Shown: in pieces, positions 43,599-46,751 of the stretch
How positions within the stretch are numbered: position 1 is the stretch's first letter
How the letters are laid out: every line of letters starts with the position of its first letter
Origin: Lachnospiraceae bacterium
GTDB taxonomy: Bacteria; Bacillota; Clostridia; Lachnospirales; Lachnospiraceae
Length of the DNA: 64,000 nt
Reading direction: 5' to 3'
Assembly (NCBI GenBank): GCA_014239155.1
Contig: JAAZZQ010000003.1
Span: 62,001-126,000, forward strand
Notes under the pieces: generated by a model
Database searches by the model: none
Seen by the model: only the letters and a program-made list of their open reading frames with translations
What the model was told of the DNA's origin: nothing
Made by a program: the position numbers and the translations under genes

Positions 43599-43677
43599 TT
43601 GTCACCCCTGCAAGGAAATTTATTTGTATACACTATATAAGACTTATCTATTCCCAAAAAAGATTAACAAATCAAAA

Positions 43678-43703
43678 AAAGAGTGTAAATTACAACACTC
43701 TTT
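43678..43703 (-). terminator. Terminator of the DUF2828 operon
   Basis: AAAGAGTGT pairs with ACACTCTTT around 8 bases and is followed by seven T on the minus strand, about 30 bases after the DUF2828 stop codon. Confidence 0.85.
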
Positions 43704-43731
43704 TATTCTTCCTTACATATATGATTTCATT

Positions 43732-45336
43732 TTATGCCTTTGTTTTATTCGATTCCGTATTGCTTACGCCCACTGTAGAAAATATAGCATCTTCATCTAT
43801 TGCCTGCTCCACCGCATCATATCTTGGCACCATAAGCTGTTGTACCAACATCTTATACGGGTCCACCTCATTGCTAAGCACCATCTTTGTAATAACAGGT
43901 GAAAATCCACTTACAAGCGCCACACCAAGCGCATTTTCTCGAATAGGCACAGTCTTTGTTCTGCTGCAAATATTCCAGAACACCAGTCTTGGCAGACGAT
44001 ACCCATGTGATGCATATTTCTTTGCAAATGTATTAAACAACTTTTCGTCAGGAGATATATAACTGCCATTGACATAGTTTCTTGTCGCTGCATCAAATTC
44101 CATATCGGACAATATCAATAAATTTTCTGGAAGCTCGCACTGTGGCATATGATATTTCAGTGCAGTGTCCAAAATTAAATTAAATACTGCCTCTATGTTT
44201 GTGTTTGCCACCTCATTATAATGTATCGCAATACACAGTTTATCATACAGTGTCTTTCCCTTTGACAAATCTACAAACTGCGGGGTCTGACTAAATGTAA
44301 TATAAGTATCTTTAAACTGTCCTGTACAGTGCTCTGAAAAGTAAATTGCAATCGCGTTTGCCACTTCTAGACAGGACACCTGAGAACTGCCAACCTTCGT
44401 CCACATACTTCCAGAACCATCTGCGATACAAAGCGTATTTCCTGCACCCTGTACATAATCAGGCAATGCCTTCCACAATTCCTCCAAAGTATCATCCACA
44501 GGCTTTACATACACCCAACCAGGTTTTTTGTCATAGTCCATATAAGAGTGTACAATATCATGTGGATAAAGTACCCCTGCATGAACTGACTTCTCTCCCT
44601 TTTTCACTGCGCCGAGAAATGCTCGGCGACGCTCCTCGTCATTGCGCAAAAATGCAACATTATACAACAGATTCGCCCTTGATGGAACTGCTTCATAGTC
44701 AATATCAGACCATCTCTTTTGACTCATCTTCACTTCCACAACATTCAAATAACTTCTGTAAGAAGCCAGCATTTTGCGGTATTGTCTGCTTGTCATAGAA
44801 AGTTTTGTCGCCAACAGGCGCGCCAATCGCTTTGTGTTTGATGAAGAAGCATTTTCTGAAGGCAGCCACTTTGCACATAAACTAATTGATGTGCCTTTTT
44901 CCATATTTGTGCTATCTTCCTGAAGCTGTTTTTTTATTAGCTCCGCCGCTTCCTCTACAAGCGGCGTGTCAATCAATGCCACTAGAATATCCCTCCGAGA
45001 ATACTCTGGTATCAATGGCATCAAGGCTTTCATAAGCGCAGGGCGACTTTGTGAAAGCTCCATCAAAATAATCTTAAAAAGCCTGCGCTCTCCAAGTCCC
45101 TGCCGCACATCTCCCGCAAAAAACAGCCATCGTATCGCAAGCTTAGGTTCTTCATAATAAGCTTTGATAAACTGATCTACAATCTCTTTTGGTGAGGCAT
45201 TTCTGAAAGAAGAAACAGCAAAATTTAAATCAAGCAGAGCCTTCCCTGACGTTCTATAACCAACCGCACCATTTTCGGTAATTGATGTGTTATATTCATT
45301 ATTCAACATGTTCTTAACATTCTGCATGAATCCCAT
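43732..45336 (-). CDS. DUF2828 protein with VWA domain, Ro60/TROVE-like layout
   Basis: 534 residues. The N-terminal about 290 residues are helical and carry the DUF2828 hallmarks TENGAVGYRTSGKALLDLNF and FFAGDVRQGLGERRLFK. The C-terminal part is a von Willebrand A domain with a metal site: CIADGSGSMW (D-x-S-x-S, about residues 306-310), TYITFSQTP and LILSDMEFDAA. Helical repeats followed by VWA is the arrangement of Ro60, which binds Y RNAs and defective small RNAs; I infer an RNA-binding role. Four structured RNAs with tRNA features are encoded just upstream in the same direction with no terminator between, which supports that. AAGGAGG lies 8 bases before the ATG chosen (45336). Confidence 0.85.
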   Translation of the reverse strand: MGFMQNVKNMLNNEYNTSITENGAVGYRTSGKALLDLNFAVSSFRNASPKEIVDQFIKAYYEEPKLAIRWLFFAGDVRQGLGERRLFKIILMELSQSRPALMKALMPLIPEYSRRDILVALIDTPLVEEAAELIKKQLQEDSTNMEKGTSISLCAKWLPSENASSSNTKRLARLLATKLSMTSRQYRKMLASYRSYLNVVEVKMSQKRWSDIDYEAVPSRANLLYNVAFLRNDEERRRAFLGAVKKGEKSVHAGVLYPHDIVHSYMDYDKKPGWVYVKPVDDTLEELWKALPDYVQGAGNTLCIADGSGSMWTKVGSSQVSCLEVANAIAIYFSEHCTGQFKDTYITFSQTPQFVDLSKGKTLYDKLCIAIHYNEVANTNIEAVFNLILDTALKYHMPQCELPENLLILSDMEFDAATRNYVNGSYISPDEKLFNTFAKKYASHGYRLPRLVFWNICSRTKTVPIRENALGVALVSGFSPVITKMVLSNEVDPYKMLVQQLMVPRYDAVEQAIDEDAIFSTVGVSNTESNKTKA

Positions 45337-45380
45337 TTTCATTTCCTCCTTCTAAAAAAATTCAAACATGCTCTAAAAAA

Positions 45381-45499
45381 TGGAGCTGGCAGGACTTGAA
45401 CCCGCAATCGGTATTTCTTAAATAAAATTGCTGCAAAAGCTTTTATCAAAGCTTCTTCAAATATTCTGATACTGCTCTACCCAATTGAGCTACAGCCCC
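45381..45499 (-). ncRNA. tRNA-like RNA A with anticodon-arm insert
   Basis: Acceptor stem GGGGCTG/CAGCTCC (7 bp), D arm GCTC-AATTGGGTA-GAGC, variable CGATT, T arm GCGGG-TTCAAGT-CCTGC and discriminator A. No CCA is encoded. Where the anticodon arm should be, GTAT and ATAC can pair, but between them lie about 55 nt containing the shared module: AAGCTTT-GATA-AAAGCTT hairpin, then TTGCAGCAATTTTATTT. I cannot reconstruct a normal anticodon loop here, so no tRNA identity is given. It is nearest to the DUF2828 gene, 44 bases before its start. Confidence 0.8.
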
Positions 45500-45515
45500 A
45501 TATAGTACATTCAAA

Positions 45516-45629
45516 CGGGGCTATTCGGAATCGAACCGAAGAAAATAATGGAGTGACAGTCCACTTGTATAAAGTTGCTGCAAGAATCTTTGACAAGATT
45601 CTAATGCTCTACCACTGAGCGATAGCCCC
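45516..45629 (-). ncRNA. tRNA-like RNA B, Asp(GUC)-like with insert
   Basis: Acceptor GGGGCTA/TAGCCCC (perfect), D arm GCTC-AGTGGTA-GAGC, T arm TTCGG-TTCGATT-CCGAA. The anticodon arm GTGGA-CTGTCAC-TCCAT is present and gives anticodon GUC; discriminator G73 also fits tRNA-Asp. Between base 26 and the anticodon stem lie 40 extra bases: AGAATCTT-GTCA-AAGATTCT hairpin (the A in the left loop end is shared) followed by TGCAGCAACTTTATACAA. The variable region is 7 nt. No CCA is encoded. Confidence 0.82.
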
Positions 45630-45658
45630 AATACAATATAAAAATTAATTTGTAAAAA

Positions 45659-45774
45659 TAGGGCTAGCCGGAATCGAACCGACGACACGGGGATTATAAG
45701 TCCTAAAGAAAATTGCTGCAAAAGCTTTTGACAAAGCTCCTTTTTACCTGCTCTACCTGCTGAGCTATAGCCCT
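45659..45774 (-). ncRNA. tRNA-like RNA C, Ile(UAU)-like with insert
   Basis: Acceptor AGGGCTA/TAGCCCT (perfect), D arm GCTC-AGCAGGTA-GAGC, variable GTGTC, T arm GTCGG-TTCGATT-CCGGC, discriminator A. The anticodon stem is split: GG after the D arm, then a 43-nt insert (TAAAAAGG, AGCTTT-GTCA-AAAGCT hairpin, TTGCAGCAATTTTCTTTA), then GGA-CTTATAA-TCCCC. Removing the insert between bases 28 and 29 restores a perfect GGGGA/TCCCC stem and a standard tRNA with anticodon UAU. No CCA is encoded. Confidence 0.85.
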
Positions 45775-45792
45775 ATAATTTTTACTCAAATA

Positions 45793-45883
45793 GGAGTGGT
45801 TTGAAAATCGAGAATTCTATCGTGAAATCCATATGTAAGATTGCTGTATGTATCTTTATCAAGATACATTTCCAAACCACCCC
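45793..45883 (-). ncRNA. Structured RNA D with the same module, not tRNA-like
   Basis: A closing stem of 11 bp (GGGGTGGTTTG with CAAACCACTCC, one G-U) holds the shared module: ATGTATCTT-GAT-AAAGATACAT hairpin followed by ACAGCAATCTTACATATG. D and T arms cannot be found. It is the first RNA after the promoter, so the transcript 5' end probably lies at or a few bases before its stem. Confidence 0.75.
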
Positions 45884-45891
45884 ATGCATTT

Positions 45892-45920
45892 ACTATACCA
45901 CAATTCAAAAAATTAAACAA
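45892..45920 (-). promoter_or_regulatory. Promoter of the tRNA-like RNA and DUF2828 operon
   Basis: TTGTTT (45915-45920), 17-base spacer, TATAGT (45892-45897). The -10 box is 9 bases before RNA D, and the -35 box touches the stop codon of the upstream pseudogene. I see no second promoter between the RNAs. Confidence 0.65.
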
Positions 45921-46751
45921 TATACTCGTGGTATAACTTTTTGACCTCCTCAATCACACATGTATGTTCTTTTGTCTTTTTATCATAATCAATTCCCACT
46001 AATAAAATCTCACCTGAATACTCCCTTAGCGACTCTAGATATTGTCTTTCTTTAATTTGTGAAATTGCTGCTTCTGCACTTTTATCCCATTTTAACTCAA
46101 CTACAATTACTGGGCGATTGGGGTGATTATGCAATGGTAAATATACAATATCGGCAAATCCCTTGCCACATGGAAATTCACGAATAGGCTGATGATAATA
46201 CATAAACGCAGCAATAAATGCAATCATAATTGTACAGGACAGCGAATTTTCATCATTGTATTCAATGCTGGAAACAAAATCATTATGCACATTTTGTATC
46301 AGATTTGCAGTCTGCTCTGAATCACCATCCATCACAGCATTTAATAATATCCATTATACCATTCTTTCATCTGGTCAAAATCAACATCAAATTTCTCACA
46401 AAGAGACTGGCTCTCTCCTTCTGTAAAACCAATATCCTGTGTTAAGTCCATTGAATTTGTCATTGTATATTCCACAAAATTATTGACAGCAGACTGTCCT
46501 TTTGTCCGAACAACAGGCATGATCCCTGTAAGATATGCCAAACGGATATACTCTTTCGCATCACTGTTTTTGAACAGTCTGCGCAAAAATTCAATATAAT
46601 CTATTCTCTCTTGACAGTCTTCAGAAAACTCTCTAATTGGATAATCCCACTCATCAAAAATAATAACAAACTGATTTTTAGTATCATTATATATATTTGA
46701 CAAAGCATCTGCTATTGTATCATCTTCTAAAACTGTCTCGTTACCTGTCAT
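45913..46751 (-). pseudogene. Remnant of an AAA-ATPase/PD-(D/E)XK nuclease gene
   Basis: Two pieces of one family of AAA-ATPase-like proteins with a C-terminal nuclease domain, common in Lachnospiraceae. The 46341-46751 part has the Walker B region FVIIFDEWDYPIRE and LTGIMPVVRTKGQSAVNNF, then breaks off at WYNGYY. The 45913-46335 part has the nuclease core FADIVYLP and IVVELKWDKSAEAAISQIKE. The Walker A part and a stretch between the two pieces are missing, and a stop codon separates them, so it cannot be functional as one protein. Confidence 0.8.

Follow-up and report, generated by a model that had tools for sequence, protein, structure and literature searches.

The window studied here is a stretch of 64,000 nucleotides from a Lachnospiraceae bacterium of the gut (contig JAAZZQ010000003.1, positions 62,001 to 126,000), and the locus in question contains a gene for a DUF2828/DUF7788 protein preceded by four small RNAs, which we call R1 to R4. 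All parts of the locus are on the minus strand, and spans are given in window coordinates. The gene (43732..45336) encodes a protein of about 534 amino acids with a predicted Ro60-like ring and vWA domain. Pfam matches to both DUF7788 (expect value (E) 4.1e-38) and DUF2828 (E 1.2e-32) agree with the identity assigned in a first-pass annotation of the window, which was made from the sequence alone. The reading frame is open from 45342, and the start is probably the ATG at 45336, since that ATG fits an AGGAGG sequence and the syntenic start in a second locus, L119. Given this start, the 44-base spacing that the annotation reported between the last RNA and the gene holds, and the terminator that it placed after the gene is seen as an intrinsic-terminator-like hairpin at 43677..43704. 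The annotation also proposed that RNAs and gene form one operon, read from a TATAGT promoter (45897-45892). That hexamer was not among the promoter-like sites, which number 10 against 8.2 ± 2.5 expected and are thus at the level of chance. While the promoter part of the operon claim is without support, orientation, spacing and synteny speak for the rest: in L119 the order R1-R2-R3-R4-gene is preserved, after the same YitT-family gene (named YitT by eye).

Three of the RNAs are whole tRNA bodies carrying an inserted module. R2 (45659..45774), R3 (45516..45629) and R4 (45381..45499) each match the Rfam tRNA model over its full length, at 42.5, 43.5 and 45 bits, respectively, with a long insert separating the D and T arms; this bears out the earlier claim of three RNAs with acceptor, D and T arms. 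ARAGORN called no tRNA at R2-R4, presumably because of the insert. The R2 insert (45704..45746) comprises a hairpin, TT, GCAGCAA and linkers, and lies between anticodon-stem nucleotides 28 and 29. The 3' part of the R2 anticodon arm (45689..45703) reads GGA CTTATAA TCCCC, with the anticodon UAU at 45698-45696, and pairs with G27 and G28. In R3, GCAGCAA is at 45581-45575 and an anticodon-like arm, GTGGA CTGTCAC TCCAT, at 45548..45564. These arms, with five Watson-Crick pairs in R2 and four plus one G-U pair in R3, are split or preceded by the insert and were overlooked in the first-pass annotation. R4 has GCAGCAA at 45434-45428, and its anticodon arm is not clear-cut. R1 (about 45793..45883), of which a syntenic copy is found in L119, has no tRNA body and is made up of a long closing helix, an internal hairpin and ACAGCAA. 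All four RNAs share one element, a helix and then (A/G)CAGCAA. As to the four compact folds described earlier, single-sequence folding gave z scores of -4.76 for R1 and -3.74 for R3, in agreement with the description, while those of R2 (-1.3) and R4 (-1.9) are unconvincing by themselves; the form of R2 is backed by covariation, as described below. The stretches nearest to R2 in its own genome outside the locus are 37-39 nucleotides long, 84-87% identical and within tRNA-Phe genes; R2 has therefore not been copied recently from a native tRNA. Adjacent to the locus, positions 45913-46751 of the minus strand hold two adjoining frames with AAA-ATPase_like and PDDEXK_9 matches; these are absent at the syntenic place in L119 and appear to be what is left of a disrupted AAA/PDDEXK gene.

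The AlphaFold2 model of the protein has a helical-repeat ring closed by a vWA domain. In a Foldseek search with this model, all seven matches at E ≤ 0.001 were Ro60/TROVE proteins, as were the top ten entries returned by VIA-align, and the Ro60 alignment spans nearly the whole protein, at 11-15% identity in the structural alignments. The first-pass annotation had proposed a Ro60-like fold and named structure prediction as a check on it, and Ro60/TROVE proteins are indeed the best matches of the predicted structure. The vWA domain has the D-x-S-x-S sequence of a metal-ion-dependent adhesion site, with D308, S310 and S312 invariant in both alignments. The window protein also matches PHROG 850 ('RNA-binding protein') at E 4.2e-129, and homologues of it are found in 682 of 50,697 phage records. 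On the strength of the model, the best reading of the DUF2828/DUF7788 protein is that it represents a divergent branch of the family of Ro60, known in humans as an autoantigen.

The RNA element was followed in 195 DUF2828 loci, made up of 23 from 250 genomes of the same family (the window's own genome counted in), 12 from phages, 80 from IMG/VR (the best 80 of at least 584 relatives) and 80 from named genomes (the best 80 of at least 583). A query of viral contigs with the single protein found no relative, and an alignment was then used as the query that gave the IMG/VR set. Because L003 is the L118 locus and L043 is nearly L044, L118 and L044 were omitted from the 7-mer count (n = 193) and kept in the count of occurrences within 800 nucleotides (n = 195). 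In an unbiased count of 7-mers in the 800 nucleotides upstream of the gene, each counted once per locus, ACAGCAA ranked first, being present in the sense orientation in 135 of 193 loci and in antisense in 7; the next 800 nucleotides outward contained it in 34 of 193. The 7-mers ranked behind ACAGCAA were overlapping words and words from the T and D arms. The sense density upstream was 2.18, 1.77, 2.13 and 2.10 per kb in the four groups, versus 0.06, 0.00, 0.05 and 0.05 per kb on the opposite strand. At least one ACAGCAA lay within 800 nucleotides on either side of the gene in 164 of 195 loci (21/23, 11/12, 67/80 and 65/80 by group). The same was true of four of six further phages, with which 18 of the 682 homologue-bearing phage records were examined. 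The module thus recurs beside DUF2828 genes elsewhere, as the first-pass annotation had anticipated, and homologues are not generally devoid of such RNAs nearby. Chance neighbourhood of tRNA genes and DUF2828 was considered as an explanation and rejected in view of the shared element and the covariation.

The position of the element relative to the gene bears on its role. In the Vibrio phages L031 (about 1935-1976) and L255 (about 1440-1482), the element lies 28-29 nucleotides before the start, and its 3' strand, by eye, overlaps the DUF2828 start codon, an arrangement that suggests autoregulation; elements within 70 nucleotides of the start also occur in L032 and L037. The stems might accordingly act as leaders through which the protein regulates its own mRNA, the tRNA forms being by-products. 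Many copies, however, are downstream of the gene (70 within 800 nucleotides in the 80 IMG/VR loci), and others are multiple, lie hundreds of nucleotides upstream or sit inside tRNA bodies, so that we consider a cis-regulatory role improbable.

Two topologies of the element were found in a sample of 444 ACAGCAA sites from 166 loci, all within 1000 nucleotides of the gene. A downstream-paired helix ending 0-3 nucleotides before the motif, with a score of at least 7, was present at 265 of the 444 sites, compared with 52 when the flanks were shuffled. By the script's cut-offs, 263 sites were of a Y type, with the partner strand downstream, and 92 of an H type, with a hairpin directly upstream of the motif (a four-nucleotide loop in 59), in sets that may overlap, the remaining sites being unassigned. 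The strand letters AAGACAC are common to both types, and the partner strand carries CTTG or CTAG in 140 of 259 Y sites and 36 of 87 H sites after removal of duplicates, versus 208 of 6920 background 9-mers. Given these shared marks, an H hairpin resembles a Y stem whose ends have been linked through a tetraloop. The element is found, then, either as a basal stem of 5' and 3' strands, at times around a permuted tRNA, or as a capped hairpin within an un-permuted tRNA. A T arm was present in 43 of 259 distinct Y-type loops, against 3 of 263 shuffled ones, and a T arm before a D arm, the pattern of a permuted tRNA, in 8 of the 259, some of these 8 spanning adjacent RNAs. By eye, L030 (mycobacteriophage BigCheese) and L154 are again split at 28/29. 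That a T arm cannot be recognised in most Y-type RNAs would fit a RYPER-like arrangement, in which the ring is linked through the RNAs to PNPase or some other exoribonuclease that degrades structured RNA, the tRNA body being a mere scaffold; the layout is also that of Rsr-Y RNA-PNPase in the available passages of PMC8394870. Because such tethering explains neither why entire tRNA bodies, their acceptor ends free, were retained nor the RNA ligase neighbours described below, we regard it as possible but not likely.

The tRNA bodies themselves were collected by a strict search, which found, in 61 of 195 loci, 102 distinct ones that have [ACG]CAGCAA between the D and T arms. In 54 of the 102, joining the two sides of the insert restored an anticodon stem of five Watson-Crick pairs, versus 32 of 2040 shuffles; the other 48 bodies had no five-pair stem. 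The insertion point in the 54 was after nucleotide 28 in 23, 31 in 12, 29 in 10, 26 in 6 and 27 in 3. Loop letters were unconstrained in the search, yet U33 was present in 40 and A or G at 37 in 52 of the 54. In 21 selected RNAs, 28 pairs were formed in 97.4% of cells, with double changes at every anticodon-stem pair, and the covariation score was 0.814, compared with 0.222 for shuffled and at most 0.190 for slid sequences; the 21 were drawn from 32 picked for five-pair stems and U33, so that the anticodon pairing was built in by the choice of sequences, which was laxer for the acceptor, D, T and module helices or did not concern them. The covariation is due in part to descent from different tRNAs. 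The 21 RNAs were also made into a covariance model, which was run against the 250 family genomes and, among the matches listed best first, gave at least 74 bits in eight genomes. Ordinary tRNAs matched the model in all 250, at up to about 62 bits; a call of an insert-bearing tRNA required at least 74 bits, and matches in G118 (105 nucleotides, 63.9 bits) and G078 (129 nucleotides, 61.2 bits) were not counted. Seven of the eight genomes have DUF2828 (23 of 250 overall), and in these the RNA is no more than about 1 kb from the gene. Occurrence of the RNAs apart from DUF2828, which the first-pass annotation had named as evidence against its proposal, is thus rare, with G131, discussed below, as the exception. 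When the 5' half of R2 was sought in 397 family genomes, it was found in its own genome only, and its closest relatives are probably in another collection.

With the insert omitted, the anticodon stem of the 54 bodies is regular and their variable loop has 3-5 nucleotides, as might be expected if the module were an intron whose removal leaves a decoding tRNA. The R2 orthologues, of which ten distinct sequences were analysed by parsimony on the gene tree, say otherwise. Their acceptor and D stem are unchanged and the module nearly so, and the anticodon stem is GGGGA/TCCCC (GGGGC/GCCCC in L119). Positions 34, 35 and 36 changed 4, 4 and 1 times, respectively, while 32, 33, 37 and 38 changed 1, 0, 0 and 1 times. 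There were no changes in the acceptor; per site, there were 0.24 in the module, 0.71 in the T arm, 1.29 in the linkers and 2.41 at third codon positions. Rapid change was also seen at one site in the T loop (5 changes), one in a linker (4) and one in the D loop (3). The loop frame of R2 is held while its codon-reading positions drift or diversify, and decoding by R2 is unlikely, given that 34 and 35 vary while the R2 body is near-constant. A working intron-bearing tRNA was rejected on this variable anticodon. Moreover, some bodies have no anticodon arm, and the same element also forms stand-alone RNAs; an intron is, in our judgement, very improbable.

A further reading is that those tRNA bodies whose anticodon arm is intact serve as decoys or sensors of anticodon nucleases, protected or presented by the ring, with bacteria soaking up or detecting tRNA-cutting toxins and phages countering host nucleases. 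The rebuilding of the five-pair stem far above the shuffled level, the undemanded U33, the contrast of positions 34 and 35 with the rest of the loop and the acceptor, and the many phage homologues would all be in keeping with bait RNAs, and the available passages of PMC7790460 suggest that the tRNA-like domain of YrlA, a bacterial Y RNA, is a competitive inhibitor of an anticodon nuclease. Against this, nearly half of the bodies have no five-pair stem, R3 of L119 has lost its anticodon arm, no such arm was found in the R3-like RNAs of L120 and of L126, from Lachnospiraceae bacterium A4, and PADLOC (2023 library) gave no match. Further, 4 changes do not clearly exceed the 2.4 found per third codon position, so that the changes at 34 and 35 are explained equally well by lack of constraint and by diversifying selection. 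We consider a bait function unlikely, if worth bearing in mind.

In sum, we think it fairly likely that the DUF2828 protein is a divergent Ro60 with R1-R4 as its Y RNAs, having a docking element and a tRNA face that recruits tRNA-handling enzymes. This supports the first-pass annotation, which had proposed such an RNA-protein particle, be it for RNA quality control, tRNA surveillance or defence. The workings of such a particle we infer from the computed features. The Ro60-like ring would dock on a short helix, with AAGACAC the majority sequence on one strand and ACAGCAA single-stranded, mostly 0-2 nucleotides on. In R2-R4 the effector part would be the whole tRNA body, the docking hairpin being placed in the anticodon region. 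R2-R4 may thus be a circular permutation of YrlA, in which both ends, 5' and 3', lie in the docking stem while the acceptor is capped; in R2-R4 it would be the stem that is capped and the acceptor that is free. The tRNA face might recruit a repair ligase, nuclease, modification or CCA enzyme, and the particle might survey, repair or degrade damaged tRNA-like RNAs. RtcB-type peptide motifs, found in 24 of 195 loci within the flanks retrieved, and RNA ligase genes annotated near DUF2828 in three phage regions may favour tRNA repair or surveillance. A narrower proposal, that this is a second, phage-rich Ro60 branch whose Y RNAs include whole tRNAs with the docking hairpin in the anticodon stem and free-changing anticodons, serving as protein-bound baits for anticodon nucleases in bacteria and phages, is put forward only as a doubtful possibility. 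Other annotated neighbours of phage DUF2828 genes are Band-7/SPFH genes (L252, 73-972; L254, 3061-3969).

Several findings weigh against a divergent Ro60 with Y RNAs. The window protein has no match to Pfam TROVE (PF05731) at E 0.01, and eight phage relatives have none at E 1, with one weak vWA_Ro60 match (E 0.02). The predicted TM-score of the AlphaFold model is 0.75, and the Ro60 alignments have root-mean-square deviations of 5.1-6.4 Å. A PDB sequence-profile search reached TROVE chains at E 0.36 at best, too weak to use, although profile-profile comparison does link DUF2828 to TROVE (E 9.2e-6). ACAGCAA is absent within 800 nucleotides of the gene in 31 of 195 loci, some loci being cut by contig ends, and in the giant phages GAP32 and XbC2. 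G131, a 98% complete genome, has a module-bearing tRNA (stretch L219, about 1500-1620) and no DUF2828 was detected in it; the L219 frames at 1727 and 2224, 3' of this tRNA, are nicotinamidase-like and PRPP-synthetase-like (named by eye). Finally, RtcB does not adjoin the window gene and is elsewhere in its genome.

If the divergent Ro60 reading is true, a function-unknown family present in 682 phage records and many gut bacteria gains an RNA partner and a mechanism class, Y RNAs come in two circularly permuted topologies around one tRNA split point, and what bacterial Ro particles do with tRNA becomes testable in small genetic systems, e.g., a Bacillus subtilis phage.

Ro-type proteins in phages have already been noted (PMC7765460, PMC7824862 and PMC12714340, in the passages available), and the available part of the jumbo-phage paper presents the cellular Ro protein as an RNA-repair platform with a tRNA-like partner (PMC7824862). 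The phage 'Ro-like RNA binding protein' of mycobacteriophages such as BigCheese, or PHROG 850, belongs with the window gene in one protein family. Across the 18 phage regions, ordinary tRNA genes were the only RNAs annotated beside the gene, two records having no annotation there. In the open-access literature, DUF2828 is mentioned in four papers, none of them listed as concerning RNA, and no account of these RNAs was found; as far as that literature shows, the candidate RNA partner of DUF2828, the element and the un-permuted, tRNA-ended form would be new.

Like Ro60/Rsr (TROVE PF05731; PDB 2nvo, 1yvr and 9l5y, the last from Thermus phage phiLo), the DUF2828 protein has a ring and vWA fold, as predicted, and its gene lies beside small RNAs with tRNA-like parts and sometimes has RtcB nearby. 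It differs in having Pfam DUF2828 and DUF7788 rather than TROVE, for which there is no match anywhere in the window's genome, and in the RNA consensus that adjoins the gene. Canonical TROVE loci (n = 8) comprised four from viral contigs and four of six from genomes, L198 and L203 being excluded for short or doubtful frames. GTTACTTCG or a near form was present in six of the eight, in the layout GAG(G)..GTTACTTCG..CCTC, and in 1 of 195 DUF2828 loci, so that in this consensus the DUF2828 RNAs differ from YrlA. Conversely, the eight canonical loci carry 0-2 ACAGCAA each; in the four genome loci, the L202 copy is some 30 nucleotides before the Y RNA and the others are in or after the gene. Rfam is unusable for deciding Y RNA membership: at the gathering score no Y RNA family was matched in 18 loci, canonical TROVE loci included, and the window RNAs matched tRNA only. 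YrlA reportedly has no free CCA end.

In the available passages of PMC8394870, YrlA consists of a large 5'-3' stem that binds Rsr and a tRNA-like domain. R2-R4 likewise have D, T and acceptor arms in addition to the putative docking stem, the R2 type being supported by covariation, and a few DUF2828 RNAs resemble YrlA in being permuted tRNAs. The window's R2-R4, in contrast, are un-permuted, with free acceptor ends, a capped docking hairpin, and ACAGCAA in place of GTTACTTCG. Pairing of the ends in a basal stem, a YrlA trait, is seen in R1 and the 263 Y-type sites and not in R2-R4, whose ends pair in the acceptor. An anticodon-like hairpin does not set the two kinds of RNA apart: CGA-CTGTTAA-TCG occurs in canonical Bacillota Rsr Y RNAs, in L202 (about 166-330) and L200 (about 600-760, reverse complement). 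By eye, the canonical L202 RNA is a permuted tRNA with a CTGTTAA loop, split at 28/29, and this split point is thus common to DUF2828 RNAs and canonical Y RNAs.
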